This document shows positions 9,905 through 55,200 of a stretch of 64,000 nucleotides of DNA, in pieces. The stretch lies in contig JADQCE010000003.1 of the NCBI GenBank assembly GCA_016278265.1, positions 310,001 through 374,000 on the forward strand, written 5' to 3'. The translations under genes were made by a program, and so were the position numbers. The notes beneath the pieces are model-generated. The model was not told the DNA's origin and ran no database searches. It saw only the letters and a list, made by a program, of their open reading frames with translations. Source of the stretch: Halothiobacillus sp. (GTDB lineage: Bacteria; Pseudomonadota; Gammaproteobacteria; Halothiobacillales; Halothiobacillaceae). Positions within the stretch are counted from its first letter, which is position 1. Each line of letters starts with the position of its first letter.

Positions 9905-10984
9905 ATGCGCAAGATCATCCACGTCGACATGGACGCCTTCTATGCCTCGGTCGAGCAGCGCGATCGGCCCGAGTTGCGTGGCCGTCCTGTGGTGGTCGGT
10001 GGCGATCCGGCCGGGCGTGGCGTGGTTGCCGCTGCAAGCTATGAGGCGCGACAGTTCGGCATCCATTCGGCGATGCCGGCTGCGCGCGCTGCTCGCGCCT
10101 GTCCGGAGGTGGTTTTCCTGCGCCCCCGATTCGATGTCTACCGCGCGGTTTCTCGCCAGATCCATGCGGTGTTTCGCCGTTACACCGATTGGATCGAACC
10201 CCTGTCTCTGGACGAGGCCTATCTCGATGTCACCGACAGCTCGGCCTGTCGTGGCTCGGCGACCCTGATGGCGCGCGAGATCAAGGCGGCAATCCATGAG
10301 ACGACCGGGTTGATCGCCTCGGCTGGCGTTTCCTACAACAAATTTCTCGCCAAGCTCGCCTCGGATGTGGACAAGCCCGATGGCCTTTACCTGATCGATC
10401 CCGAGGGCGCGCCGGCGTTCATCGAGGCGCTTCCCGTGGGTGATTTCCACGGTGTCGGACCGGCCACCGAGCGACGCATGAAGGCCCACGGCATCCACAC
10501 TGGCGGCGACCTGCGCGGTCACGATCTGCACGAATTGGTCGAGTGGTTCGGCAAGGCGGGGCGGCATTATTACCAGATCGCGCGCGGCATCGACGAGCGG
10601 CCCGTTCAGAGCCGGCGCGAGCGCAAGTCGCTGGGACATGAGACCACCTACGCACGCGACCTGACCTCCCGCGACGAGGTCGAGGCGGCCCTGCCGTCGT
10701 TGGTCGAGCGGGTCGCACGCGACCTGGCGGCACGCGAGCTTGCCGCGCGCACGGTCACGCTGAAGGTGAAGTACGCGGATTTCGTCCAGATCACCCGACG
10801 GCGCACCTTCACGCGGCCGTTGTCGTCGGCCGAGGAGCTGCTCGGCGCCTTGCCTGGTCTGTTTGATGACACCGAGGCCGGTCGCCGCCCGATTCGGCTA
10901 CTGGGCGTCACGTGTTCGGGGCTACAGGCTCGCCGAGGGATGCCGTTGGGCGAGCTCGATCTCGGCTGGCAGTCGTCGGGCTGA
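9905..10984 (+). CDS. dinB: DNA polymerase IV (Y family)
   Basis: Error-prone translesion polymerase. It is 359 residues long from the ATG at 9905, where MRKIIHVDMDAFYASVEQRD matches the canonical DinB N-terminus. A GTG at 9887 in the same frame overlaps the previous stop codon and is less likely. Catalytic acids are Asp8 in HVDMD and Asp103-Glu104 in SLDEAYLD. A helix-hairpin-helix region (HGVGPATERRMKAHGI) and the little-finger domain follow. I saw no convincing LexA box in the short gap upstream. The C-terminus lacks an obvious QL-x-LF beta-clamp motif, ending instead in a Leu/Gly-rich stretch. Confidence 0.93.
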   Translation: MRKIIHVDMDAFYASVEQRDRPELRGRPVVVGGDPAGRGVVAAASYEARQFGIHSAMPAARAARACPEVVFLRPRFDVYRAVSRQIHAVFRRYTDWIEPLSLDEAYLDVTDSSACRGSATLMAREIKAAIHETTGLIASAGVSYNKFLAKLASDVDKPDGLYLIDPEGAPAFIEALPVGDFHGVGPATERRMKAHGIHTGGDLRGHDLHELVEWFGKAGRHYYQIARGIDERPVQSRRERKSLGHETTYARDLTSRDEVEAALPSLVERVARDLAARELAARTVTLKVKYADFVQITRRRTFTRPLSSAEELLGALPGLFDDTEAGRRPIRLLGVTCSGLQARRGMPLGELDLGWQSSG

Positions 10985-49962: not shown

Positions 49963-50819
49963 CGGATCGTGTACCCCCGACGGGGGATTCAGCGGCTGGC
50001 GAGATTCGTGGTGTGGATGCCGCACTGCTCGCCGAGGTGCGGGCGATTGCCGCGGCGGCCGGAGAGGCCATCATGGCGGTCTACCAGCAGGATTTCGCCG
50101 TCGAGCGCAAGGCGGATGCCTCGCCGGTGACCGAGGCCGACCTGGTGGCCAACCACCTGATCGCCGAGCGTTTGGCCGCCCTCGGCGAGGGTTGGCCGAT
50201 CATTACCGAAGAGGGGCGAGCCCCGGCCTGGCGCGAACGGCGCGAGTGGCCCCGCTACTGGCTGGTCGACCCGCTCGACGGCACCCGCGAGTTCGTCAAG
50301 CGCAACGGTGAATTCTCCGTCAATATCGCGCTGATCGATGACGGTATCCCGGTGCTGGGTGTCGTGCTCGCCCCGGCGATCGACCTCGAGTACGCGGCGA
50401 TTCGCGGTCAGGGCGCCTGGCGCTATCACGACGAGCCTGGCCCGATTCAGGTACGCGCCCCCGCCGATCCACCCACCTTGGCCCTGTCGCGTTCGCATGC
50501 CAGCCGACGTGAAATGCAGCTGATCGACACCTTCTCCCGGCCGGGCGCGGAGGCCAGCGTGGTGCGTTGTGGCAGTTCACTGAAGACCTGCCTGGTGGCC
50601 GAGGGCAAGGCCGATCTCTATCCGCGCCTGGGGCCGACCTCGGAATGGGATACCGCCGCCTCGCAATGCGTGCTGGAAGCGGCCGGCGGCCACCTGACCG
50701 ATCTCTCGGGCCGCCCGCTGCGCTACAACACCCGCGAATCGCTGCTCAACCCGATGTTCGTGGCCCACAACGGCCTGAGTCTTGATTTCGACCGGTTGCA
50801 CGAGATCGCCGCGCTCTGA
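49959..50819 (+). CDS. cysQ: 3'(2'),5'-bisphosphate nucleotidase
   Basis: Hydrolyses PAP from sulfate assimilation to AMP. The 286-residue inositol-monophosphatase-fold enzyme has metal-site motifs PVTEADLVAN, ITEEGR, WLVDPLDGTREF and the C-terminal EWDTAASQCVLEAAGG. The ATG at 49959 forms an ATGA with the nudE stop, after an AGGGAAGAG site. Confidence 0.94.
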   Translation: MTDRVPPTGDSAAGEIRGVDAALLAEVRAIAAAAGEAIMAVYQQDFAVERKADASPVTEADLVANHLIAERLAALGEGWPIITEEGRAPAWRERREWPRYWLVDPLDGTREFVKRNGEFSVNIALIDDGIPVLGVVLAPAIDLEYAAIRGQGAWRYHDEPGPIQVRAPADPPTLALSRSHASRREMQLIDTFSRPGAEASVVRCGSSLKTCLVAEGKADLYPRLGPTSEWDTAASQCVLEAAGGHLTDLSGRPLRYNTRESLLNPMFVAHNGLSLDFDRLHEIAAL

Positions 50820-50836
50820 CGCAGACGCCGGCTGGG

Positions 50837-50871
50837 GTAAGGCCTCGCTCGTGCCGTGCGCCGGGCCTTAC
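50837..50871. terminator. weak hairpin between convergent cysQ and ycgL
   Basis: GTAAGGCC (50837-50844) and GGCCTTAC (50864-50871) can pair around a 19-nt loop; there is no T run. It overlaps the ycgL stop codon. Confidence 0.3.
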
Positions 50872-51164
50872 TCGGGTTGCGGCTTGCCGGCGCGGATGCC
50901 GGCCTTGAGGTTGTCCCAGTGGGCCCAGTTCTCGGCGCTCGGCGGCATCTGAAGATGAAAGCCCAGCTTTTCGATATGGTCGCGCACGATCGTGCTATCG
51001 GTGCGCGCCAACGGCCGGTCTTCCGATAGATCCAGCGCCATGACGAACTCGAGCTCACCCAGGCGCTCGCGCACCATTTGATCGAGTTCGTCCATGTCCT
51101 GTCCCTCGCGCACGAACAGGTACATGTCGGGGTTCTTGCGACTCTTGAAGATATGCGCCTGCAT
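50868..51164 (-). CDS. ycgL: YcgL-domain protein
   Basis: The 98-residue cytoplasmic protein has the YcgL signature: an N-terminal YKSxKxxDxYL-like stretch (IFKSRKNPDMYLFV), LGELEFVMALDLSEDRPLA and a C-terminal GFHLQMPP. Function is unknown. In many Gammaproteobacteria it is next to rnd; here rnd is about 21 kb away. The MITE-like element lies only 24 nt upstream of its start. Confidence 0.9.
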   Translation of the reverse strand: MQAHIFKSRKNPDMYLFVREGQDMDELDQMVRERLGELEFVMALDLSEDRPLARTDSTIVRDHIEKLGFHLQMPPSAENWAHWDNLKAGIRAGKPQPE

Positions 51165-51188
51165 GACGGGCCTGACCTGCCTGATTCA

Positions 51189-51458
51189 GGGAATCTCTGC
51201 ACGAATAGTAATACTGCTCTGCGCGCCTTGAGCCGGGCAGATGCAAGGCGACCGTCTGCCGCGGAAGAGTATTCTCTTTCCAAGGACGGCAACGCAGCAG
51301 ATGTCCGGCTCAAGGCGCGCCCTGCGGGGCTTGCCGAGTCGCCCGCCCTCGGCGTTGCGCTGTCTTGACGTGGCCGCCGGCACGCCGGCTACACCGCGCC
51401 TTGATGGCGAACGACTCGGCAAGCCAGAGCGGCATTACTATTCGTGCAGAGGTTCCCC
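51189..51458. mobile_element. MITE-like non-coding element with nested inverted repeats
   Basis: Ends at about 51189-51221 and 51425-51458 are inverted repeats. Both contain CTCTGCACGAATAGTAAT, with few mismatches over about 33 bp. Inside, 51221-51236 (GCGCGCCTTGAGCCGG) pairs perfectly with 51305-51320, and 51328-51341 pairs perfectly with 51412-51425. There is no convincing gene. The ends resemble IS5-group termini (a GA-rich start followed by CTYTGCAC), from memory. I could not define a target duplication. Confidence 0.6.
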
Positions 51459-51521
51459 AATGAATGGGTGGGCGATTGTCGCAGATTCCGCGCCCTCCGG
51501 GCAGTCGTGCCCTTGCCGTGG

Positions 51522-52169
51522 CTATCGGTAGCCCGGGAATCCCCCGGGATAGCGGCCGGAGTAGCCGGGCTCCTTGATCGGCCGACCATCGCTGGAATAC
51601 GGATCGCGCGACGGACGATCGCCATCGGGCCGACGGTGGTGGGGCGGTGGCCTGTGGTTCGGGAAGGGCCGCCCGCTGTCGAACCAGAGCGAGAAGCCGT
51701 CATCGCCCAGGCGCATCCCACCGTGCGCCGGATCGCGGTAGCGATCGTAGGGTGGCAAGTGCTCGCCCCGCGGGTAGTAGGGGGTGTAGCGGCGCTCGTC
51801 GCGCCACGGAGCGACCACGACCACCTCCGGGTTGGACAGGCGGCGCTCAAGGGCGCGCCGCTCGGCCTCTTCGCGTGCCTGCTGCTCGGCCTCGAGTCGC
51901 TCATCGTATTCCCGTGCCAGCCGGTTGATGCCTTCACGGGCCGCCTCGCCACCACTGCCAGCCTCCGGCGCGGTGATGGTCTGGATCTCCATCTTGCCGT
52001 TGCAGGGTTCATCGGAATAGACGATGCGCCCGTCGGAGTGGATGCACTTGTAGACGGTTTCGGATTCCTGCGCGCTGGCTGTCCCGGCCGCCCCCAGGGT
52101 GAGGGCCAGGGCCAGGTTGGCTATGCCGATGGCGGCCGGCAGTCGTAATGAGGTGTGCAACCGGATCAT
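51522..52169 (-). CDS. exported DUF4124 protein
   Basis: The 215-residue protein has a signal peptide (about 1-33, ending GTASA-QE) and a short DUF4124 domain with two Cys (VYKCIHSDGRIVYSDEPCNGK). A coiled-coil Glu/Arg segment and a Pro/Gly/Tyr/Arg-rich C-terminus follow. The family is periplasmic and uncharacterised. The chosen ATG at 52169 starts the signal peptide; the frame runs further upstream. It follows hrpA by 95 nt. Confidence 0.82.
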   Translation of the reverse strand: MIRLHTSLRLPAAIGIANLALALTLGAAGTASAQESETVYKCIHSDGRIVYSDEPCNGKMEIQTITAPEAGSGGEAAREGINRLAREYDERLEAEQQAREEAERRALERRLSNPEVVVVAPWRDERRYTPYYPRGEHLPPYDRYRDPAHGGMRLGDDGFSLWFDSGRPFPNHRPPPHHRRPDGDRPSRDPYSSDGRPIKEPGYSGRYPGGFPGYR

Positions 52170-52264
52170 CCTGCTCGCGCCCCGTGTGGTTGTCTTCAAG
52201 CTCGTTATCCCTAACGGGTATAGACCAGTTTGTCGCGGTCCGGTTTCGACTTCGCCCGGTCGGG

Positions 52265-55200
52265 TCATTGACCCGAGAGGGCCACCTCGACGTCCTTGGC
52301 CTTTGGTGCGCCCTTGCCGGCCAGCTCCTGGGTAAAGACGTCCAGCCGATGGCCCTCAAGGAGGTCGAGCAGCGCCTCGCGTCGTTGCCAGTCGACCAGA
52401 TCCGGGCGGCCCTTCATCAGTCGGTTGCGCACCTGCTCGGCGAGCGGGGCGAACGCCACCCGTAGCATGCGATCGCGCTCCGGCTGACGCTCGGTCTTTT
52501 CCAGGCGCTTCTCGGCGCCCTCGAGATAGCGCGGCAAGGCGGCCAGTCGTTCCTCGCTCGCCAGCCAGATTAGGCCGGGGTGGACCAGCAGGTCGATCTG
52601 GTCGCCGATTTCCTTGGCCGCCTCGATCACCGACAACGGCAGCCGCCCGCTCAGCTGGCGGCGCAGGCGATGCTGGTGCTCGAGGATGGCCCTGATCCGC
52701 TGGGCGAGCGCCATGGCACGGCGCGGCAGCTCGCCGTCGAGACGGGCAAGGCATGCACGGAAGGTGTCGGGGTCGCGAATCGGGGGCTCGCCGGCGACGG
52801 CCAGCTCCCATGCCGCGCGGAAGATCAGCTCCTGGTCGAAGGCGCGATCGGCTCGCTGAGAGGCTCGCATCCCCTCGGCGGGAATCGGCCGCGGGGACTT
52901 CAACCGGCTGTAGTGCAGACGCACCGTGTCCAATGAGCGGTCGCCGCGCAGGTCGGATTCGGCCTGGCGGACCATCTGGGCGCGGGCCAGCAACATCAAA
53001 CGGACGACACCGGCCTCATGGACCCGGCGCGCGCGCTCGGGGTCGTCGATCAGTTCGATCGCGACGTGATCACCGTGGTCCACCAGGGCCGGGTGCGCTT
53101 CGACCTGCGCGCCTCCACTCTCCACCGTGAGTTTTTCTGGCAGCTCGTCGAAATCCCACTCGGTCGCCTGATGGTCTTCCAGGCGGTGCTTGCTGCGCTG
53201 GTTGAATGCCTCTTGGGCGCGTTGGGCCTGCCGACCACGCAGGGCGTTGATGTCGCGGTCGGCGTCGATCGGCTCGCCGTCCTCGTCGACGGCGACAAAA
53301 CGCATGCGCAGATGCACGGGCAGCTTTTGCTCGTCGAACAGGGCCGGGTCGACCTCGTGGCCGGTCATGCGGCGCAGTTCGTCGGCCACGGCCTGCGAGA
53401 GCGACATGTCGGTGTCGGTGATCCGATCCTCGACCGCCTCGGCGAAGCTCGGGGCCGGGACGAAATGGCGGCGCTCGGCCTTGGGCAGTGCCCGGATCAT
53501 TGCCTCGATCTTCTCGCGGCGCAGCCCCGGCACCAAGTGTGTCGTCGGCGGCGTCTCGATGCGGTTGAGCAGGGCGAGCGGGACGTGCAGGCTCACGCCG
53601 TCGTCCGGCTCGCCGGGGGCGAAGTGATAGGCAAGCTTCAATCGGTAGCGCCCCGCCTGCCAGTGATCGGGCAGTTCGGACAGGCGGCGGTCGTCGGGCT
53701 CGGTGGCCAACAGGTCGTCGCGGGTCAGTTCGAGGCTCGCCGCCGCGGCGCGGTCGTCCTTGATCCAGTGATTGAGCTTGCGCGCGTCGGTGACGTCGGC
53801 CGGGATCCGTGCCTGGTAGAAGTCGTAGAGCACTTGGTCATCGACCAGGAAGGCCGGTCGACGCAGCTTGGCCTCGAGCGTGCGGATCTCCTCGATCAAC
53901 TCCTGGTTGTGTTGCCAGAACGGCTGGGCCGATTCGAAATCCCCCTCGACCAGGGCCCGGCGGATAAAGACGTCCCGGGCGGCGACCGGGTCGATGGCGC
54001 CGAAGTCGACCCGGCGCTTGGTCACGATCGGCAGGCCGAACAGCCGCACGGTCTCGAAGGCCGTCACTCGGCCGGATTTCGCGTCCCAGGTGGGCTCGTT
54101 GTGCTCGTGGGTGACCAGGTGGCCGGCCATCGGTTCGAGCCAGCGCGGATTGATGGGGGCGTTCATTCGCGCGAACACCTTGGAGGTCTCGACGATCTCG
54201 GCGGCGACCATCCACTTGGGCTGTGCCTTGACGGTCACCGAGCCGGGGAACAGGTAGAAACGGCGGTTGTGTGCGCCCAGGTACACGGTGGGCGTACGGC
54301 GCTTCTTGCCGCGATGATCGCCGGCGGCCTGCTGGTAGCTCTTCGGGGGAGCGGGGTCCCGCATCCCGACGTGGTCGAGCAGCCCGGCCAGTGCCGATTG
54401 ATGCAGTTGGTCGACGCGGCCGGCCAGCTCGGCGGGCAGTTTCTGCTTCTCGCCTTCGTCGGGTTTGTCCGGCATGACGATCGGCTCGAACGCCGGCAGG
54501 CGGATGCGGAACATCTCGTCGACCGACTGGCGCAGCTGGCCGACCAGGTCATGCCACTCGGTCAGGCGGTTGGCGTTCAGGTATCGCTTGATCGCCCACT
54601 GGCGCGCCTGGCGGCGGCTCTTGTGGCGGCTCACCTCGTGCCAGGCCGACCAGAGCGCGAGCGCACTGGCGAAGTCCGAATCGGCCAGGGCGAACTCGCG
54701 ATGGGCGGCATCGGCCGCGCCCCGTGCCTCGCTCGGCCGTTCGCGCGGGTCCTGCAGGGCGAGGAAGGCGGCGACCACCAGCATGTCCTCGGTGGCCCGG
54801 TCGCCATGCTCGCGGGCCGCCACGATCATCCGTCCCAAGGTTGGGTCGATCGGCAGGCGCGAGAGTCGCCGACCGATCTCGGTCAGATGGCCGTGCTCAT
54901 CGAGCGCGTGCAGCTCGAACAGGTGCTTGCGGGCCGAGGCCAGCTGGCGGGGTTCGGGCGGCTCGATGAAGGGGAAGTCCTCGGCGCGGCCGAGCTTGAG
55001 CGAGTCGAGTTGCAGCAGTACCGAGGCGAGGTTGCTGCGCAGGATCTCCGGGTCGGTGAAAGCGGGCCGGCCGTCGAAGTCTTCCTCGTCAAACAGGCGG
55101 ATGCACACGCCCGGGGCGATCCGCCCGCAGCGCCCGGCGCGCTGGTTGGCCGAGGCCTGCGAGATCGCCTCGACGCCGAGCTTCTGCAGGCGGGCGCGCG

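Follow-up and report, generated by a model that had tools for sequence, protein, structure and literature searches.

The element at positions 51,190 to 51,456 of the window, the 64,000-nucleotide stretch of DNA analyzed here, is most probably an IS5-type non-autonomous mobile element, or MITE, with a conserved core (probability of about 0.8, a figure that excludes any role of the core in cis). The core is better conserved than the outer arms and is combined with several unrelated sets of arms. The IS5-type MITE reading is largely right; what sets the element apart from a routine case is its inverted-dimer core, which is widely conserved, co-varies, and occurs with exchangeable ends.

By the IS5 convention (GGAATC..GGTTCC), the element is 267 bp long and lies on the plus strand; the limits given earlier, 51,189 to 51,458, include flank bases. 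The original prediction of an element with inverted repeats at this place describes a real structure, in which two 33-nt outer arms enclose two large hairpins and a mini-hairpin. The left arm (51,189 to 51,221, plus strand) is an IS5-type terminal repeat, and the right arm (51,425 to 51,457, minus strand) is its inverted copy. The two are 91% complementary, and they contain CTCTGCACGAATAGTAAT in both orientations. One inner repeat pair (51,221 to 51,244 with 51,297 to 51,320) comprises 24 nt at 88%, with 16 bp perfect at its start, and the other (51,328 to 51,350 with 51,403 to 51,425) comprises 23 nt at 87%, with 14 bp perfect. All three of the predicted repeats therefore exist, but they are not serially nested; the inner two lie side by side within the outer one.

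The first hairpin module, hairpin A (51,221 to 51,320, plus strand), carries the boxes CAAGGCG (51,244 to 51,250) and CAACGC (51,290 to 51,295). Hairpin B (51,328 to 51,425, minus strand) is its inverted homologue and contains GCGTTGC (51,352 to 51,358) and CGCCTTGAT (51,397 to 51,405). Between the inner repeats, the consensus structure places a mini-hairpin, CCC TGC GGG (51,320 to 51,328, plus strand), which yields a four-way junction. Alignments mark two junction boxes, the near-invariant CTCTGCG (51,217 to 51,223, plus strand) and GCCAGAG (51,423 to 51,429, minus strand). The predicted single-stranded DNA fold of 51,180 to 51,470 has an energy of −100 kcal/mol; 200 dinucleotide shuffles of the same interval averaged −58.3 (standard deviation, 4.0; z, −10.3), and none was as good. 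Open reading frames of 63 to 207 amino acids overlap the element mechanically. The half-element model found no second copy within the 64-kb window at E values up to 0.05.

The source genome, from the genus Guyparkeria, has many copies. BLAST returned 43 matches with 67 to 100% identity, and a covariance model built from 34 copies (alignment A2) returned 86, many of them one place seen on both strands; merging by hand gave 47 places, with 150 of 3,161 candidates scored. The element is present in 10 of the 11 Guyparkeria genomes searched, the eleventh genome being 64% complete. ycgL was found in nine relatives, and none of them carries the element beside it: the flanks directly adjoin in eight, and the ninth is unaligned across the site. 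These nine relatives indicate that the element is mobile. Empty sites exist for other copies as well (34 spanning alignments, some of which are imperfect or self matches, with 11 displayed). Between species, 11 shared-site pairs were found among 110 copies from four genomes (30, 26, 37, and 17 from G000, G001, G002, and G009, respectively), a lower bound because the copies were picked by score. The element is thus short, has terminal inverted repeats, occurs in multiple copies, and shows insertion polymorphism. The proposed search of the genome and its relatives therefore upholds the MITE-like classification, and the outcome that would have spoken against it, a single copy that all relatives share at one site, is not what these genomes contain.

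Several individual copies lie in distinctive surroundings. In one genome, two copies stand in tandem with 4 bp between them (G010:C174:10157-10424 and 10429-10694), as expected from insertion beside an existing YTAR. In G002, a copy (L274; G002:C4:221900-224550) lies midway in a terminator-like hairpin, and another locus (L087) contains the empty form of this hairpin. Halopseudomonas copies with GGGAAGCGCTAACCC ends sit in a longer repeat, and the same flanks recur among these loci (L113, L094, L138, L098, L132, L114, L119, and L131).

The element lies just upstream of ycgL (50,868 to 51,164, minus strand; PF05166), as had been noted, with some 25 bp separating it from the start codon. On the other flank is a gene with a DUF4124 domain (51,522 to 52,268, minus strand; PF13511). 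A consensus scan detected no promoter-like or terminator-like sites in 51,000 to 51,700, so it speaks neither for nor against the suggested gain or loss of a ycgL promoter. Upstream of ycgL, at about 51,474 to 51,490, the sequence GATTGTCGCAGATTCCG is nearly unchanged in eight relatives (L050 to L057). This stretch is a possible ycgL promoter, which would place the element in the 5′ leader. More generally, a crude ORF caller placed a gene on each side of 93 of 107 full-length copies; 63 of these sites are codirectional, 16 head-to-head, and 14 tail-to-tail, and comparison gene pairs elsewhere in the flanks number 89, 15, and 29, respectively. At the codirectional sites, the element runs along the genes' strand in 41 and against it in 22. 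In 22 of the 107 copies an ORF runs across the joined flanks, so some insertions may be within genes.

The flanks of the copies carry the evidence for IS5-type insertion. YTAR is the target duplication motif of IS5 (PMC10359306). Twenty-eight full-length copies have TA at each end, and in 14 of them the two flanking 4-mers are identical (TTAA in 4, CTAG in 4, CTAA in 3, TTAG in 2, and ATAA in 1); in the other half, the 4-mers are not identical. TA is preceded by C or T in 42 of 45 cases and followed by A or G in 47 of 51, a distribution that differs from background. Non-palindromic dinucleotides form direct repeats 14 times (3.5 expected) and inverted repeats 3 times (3.8 expected). This excess of direct over inverted repeats demonstrates a true duplication rather than a longer palindrome. 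At the window copy, the 4-mers in the place of the duplication, TCAG (51,186 to 51,189) and CCAA (51,457 to 51,460), mismatch each other, and the duplication is not intact. In the proposed comparison with an empty site, the one beside ycgL in G002 reads CTAG at the insertion point (the place of window 51,457 to 51,460); TCAG has drifted from YTAR, and CCAA has drifted as well.

The ends point in the same direction. Ends like GGAANCTCTG were found on real IS5-group insertion sequences, and about 10 to 18 nt of end are common to the element and to IS5-group elements of other genera. Methylomonas plasmid pUP202 bears an IS5-group element with ends AGGAACCTCTGATTAATTCC at TA and a frameshifted transposase; the Methylomonas plasmid end matches at 18 of 18 nt with an E value of 3, and an IS5 transposase is adjacent. 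H. pachastrellae carries an IS5-group element with similar ends (L440), which has GGGAAACTCTGAAG at CTAG and encodes an intact transposase with DUF772 and DDE_Tnp_1 domains. A Halothiobacillus locus (L431) has an end, GGGAACCTCTGATTG, at CTAG, with the opposite end past the contig edge. Canonical IS5 on Rts1 reads CTAA followed by GGAAGGTGCGAACAAGTCC and is similar to the arm of the Pontibacterium element (a match of about 91% across 23 nt of the IS5 end). The E values of such short BLAST queries are weak (3 to 5), so the argument is carried by the adjacent transposases.

The YTAR duplications and the similar IS5-group ends favor the suggested IS5-like transposase as the mover, but the genus shows no partner for it; likewise, an insertion sequence with similar ends exists in IS5-group elements elsewhere, and none was found within Guyparkeria. 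A profile search with PF05598 gave no match in 10 Guyparkeria genomes and matches in 12 of the 30 genomes tested overall; among 14 control genomes the profile was detected in 3, which did not include E. coli, and its sensitivity is therefore uncertain. PF01609 (DDE_Tnp_1) matched once across the 11 Guyparkeria genomes G000 to G010, in an element with other ends, so the genus looks poor in that class though rich in the element. Opposed exact ends at the distance of an insertion sequence were absent from the source genome and from the matches listed in the genus search, and three Halopseudomonas genomes showed no end pair at that distance. Plasmids yielded no match to the Guyparkeria element or its end and only a 37-nt piece of the Halopseudomonas element. 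These candidate leads were set aside: a transposase of the source genome (L203), whose inverted repeats are AAAGAGGTCAGAACC..; a DUF772 fragment near a Guyparkeria-like end (L433), the second end of which was not seen; and two plasmid matches (H1 and H2) that adjoin no transposase. A partner insertion sequence for Guyparkeria would be named by GGAAACTCTGCACGAAT ends. Its absence from these searches lowers the case for present mobility and leaves the IS5-type MITE status as it is.

Bacterial MITEs are usually defined by their ends: the terminal repeats are what the transposase recognizes, and the interior serves as filler. In this element, the middle is the conserved part. RNAalifold predicted 93 base pairs from 34 copies, with two-sided changes at 55 of them. 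Paired cells amounted to 96.7%, compared with 83.5% for shuffled partners and 33 to 42% for slid partners. The fold behind the suggested cruciform, which might extrude in cells, is thus strongly conserved. The halves of the element are homologous and inverted, each running from the arm through CTCTG, a hairpin with CAAGGCG, CAAG, and CAACGC to GCCCC; the fixed boxes of the hairpin modules are CTCTG, CAAGGCG, and AACGC. Copies from Halothiobacillus, Halopseudomonas, Pseudomonas abyssi, Porticoccus, Pontibacterium, and metagenome-assembled genomes (MAGs) have the same layout, and 16 of 17 aligned copies from other taxa are 264 to 268 bp long, the remaining one being 273 bp.

The half-element model (R2) matched 91 of 369 gammaproteobacterial genomes, in 71 of 271 genera, at E values up to 1e-8; in this survey, calibration was short, nine candidates were scored per genome, and reading by eye was limited to matches of about 1e-15 or stronger. 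In 26 genomes, one locus each was read by eye; an exact CAAGGCG stood in at least one half in 22, and a second half was found in 22, of which two were weak or short. Applied to 18 transposase loci, most of them IS5-like, R2 gave nothing better than an E value of 0.2. One locus (L403:2003-2091) is a hairpin module on its own, which contains CAAGGCG and CAACGC but has neither arms nor a second half.

The ends vary around this core. Over ten representatives, two of them from Guyparkeria, identity in 45 pairwise comparisons was 0.49 for the outer arms, 0.65 for the core, and 0.91 for the boxes. Arms can be unrelated even among copies of one genome: a single MAG (G065) has at least six unrelated arm sets around the same core, namely, GGGCACCTCT, TGTAGTGTCC, TACTCC, CCAAGACAATCG, TTAACCCGGCA, and TGTACTGCGTC. 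An ungapped arm finder detected arms in 40 of 57 loci, 26 of which have arms of 29 to 35 nt; four of the 17 misses lie at contig ends, and another (L327) has arms visible in its fold. Three copies (L316, L336, and L338) are bounded by CTAG on each side. Insertion at YTAR is not clear for the arms of the CCAAGAC and TTAACCC types or for those classed as types IV and V; types IV and V are tied to no insertion sequence, and a search with type V gave no match.

Whether the core matters for movement bears on two opposed readings. In the source genome, 26 of the 47 places are 267 to 271 bp long, and the other 21 each have a different length, from 44 to 361 bp; no multiplied shortened form is visible among the 47. 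Twenty shortened or altered forms were read: by eye, the short ones resemble products of separate deletions that left remnants of the core, and two are a single form found at one site in two species. If the ends sufficed, some short form should have multiplied, and none visibly has. We infer from these length counts, with a probability of about one half, that the element multiplies only when the folded core is present in cis. That the repeats form a class-wide family defined by its folded interior, a chassis required in cis around which terminal repeats and transposases are exchanged, is a tentative extension that falls somewhat short of even odds. On the opposing reading, the core is passive and the arms alone matter, with conservation arising from arm exchange by recombination and co-variation being left by template switching during palindrome repair or by conversion between copies. 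Copies at shared sites speak for this reading. Of 1,023 pair comparisons, 80 had changed: 33 on one side with pairing kept, 34 on one side with pairing broken, 12 on both sides with pairing kept, and 1 on both sides with pairing broken. The two-sided changes are more numerous than the roughly 2 that a hand estimate from the single rate predicts. Neither strand is favored among private mismatches (24 G-T and 30 A-C), as would be expected when no one strand is selected. In 10 of 11 shared-site pairs, similarity is higher for the element than for its 120-bp flanks on average. Constraint at the level of DNA, repair of palindromes, and conversion between copies are possible causes of this pattern. 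Against a passive core, conservation is highest in boxes for which pairing is not required, a pattern that repair leaves unexplained, and no short form has visibly multiplied in the source genome. We regard the passive core as a doubtful reading, if one with real weight.

The same private mismatches weigh on the idea that the element is a structured RNA, either a small RNA or a regulatory leader, that was amplified as a repeat and kept for its RNA function. Its conserved, co-varying fold, its place close upstream of ycgL in the window, and the excess of codirectional sites on the genes' strand would all suit such a role. Among mismatches shared by at least 5 copies, G-T types also outnumber A-C types (20 versus 9; P = 0.06), but the consensus structure allowed G-U, so this excess is confounded and was set aside. 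Private G-T changes do not exceed A-C changes, so no single strand seems to be selected; either strand of the inverted dimer bears one module; sites turn over between species; and no Rfam family matched the element in window 50,000 to 53,000 or in 12 related loci. The suggested RNA role thus finds no support in the strand comparison, and we consider it improbable. A core that is itself mobile and inserts into the middle of palindromes or MITEs, the arms belonging to its hosts, could account for the occurrence of one core within six or more unrelated arm sets in a single MAG and for the copy centered in a terminator-like hairpin (L274). This reading is disfavored as very improbable: the core-poor palindromes that were read keep central remnants of the core by eye and so resemble deletion products, arms multiply along with the core (in G064, several copies have the same arms), and the duplication falls outside the arms. 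The two inverted hairpin modules also recall a REP doublet, and the solitary module at L403 would fit a giant REPIN-like element that travels in single-stranded form with the help of a REP-associated (Y1, HUH) transposase. REPINs are marked by a lack of target duplication, and the 4-bp direct duplications and IS5-type ends found here make that origin the remotest of those considered.

The preferred reading, an IS5-type MITE with a conserved core, suggests the following course. An IS5-group DDE transposase, presumably the enzyme concerned, would act in trans and cut at the outer arms, and the element would insert at YTAR and duplicate 4 bp. The two homologous inverted modules, with their fixed boxes and the mini-hairpin, would let a single strand fold as a cloverleaf, and the core could bring the two ends together or dock a host factor. 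With no transposase source visible in Guyparkeria now, the source may have been lost or may arrive at intervals.

The element resembles IS5 (IS5 subgroup, IS5 family) in its YTAR duplication and GGAAN.. ends but shows no transposase gene. ERIC, Correia/NEMIS, and other TA-flanked MITEs are likewise small, intergenic, and hairpin forming, with TA ends and target duplication; they measure about 100 to 200 bp with ends fixed within a family (PMC2229807), whereas the present element is about 268 bp long, is an inverted dimer, and has ends that vary between copies. The R0 and R2 repeats of P. fluorescens are also intergenic and have inverted repeats that match resident insertion sequences, but they are 89 and 110 bp long and are biased toward tail-to-tail placement (PMC2718517), a bias that the element lacks (14 of 93 sites). 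The QMITEs of Coxiella and Chunjie of Geobacter are similarly multicopy MITEs with many truncated copies; their terminal repeats are the better conserved part (PMC10969869), in contrast to the interior of the element. No description of the element was found in the open-licence papers covered, which is not proof of absence.

The conserved middle is recognizable in about a quarter of the sampled gammaproteobacterial genomes (91 of 369), joined to ends that are unrelated. Should movement depend on the core, IS5-type transposition would have a structural requirement that cannot be read from the ends. If movement does not depend on it, transposons of many genera bear a conserved structure without a known function. 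Either way, the family gives a common name to many unannotated palindromic repeats.
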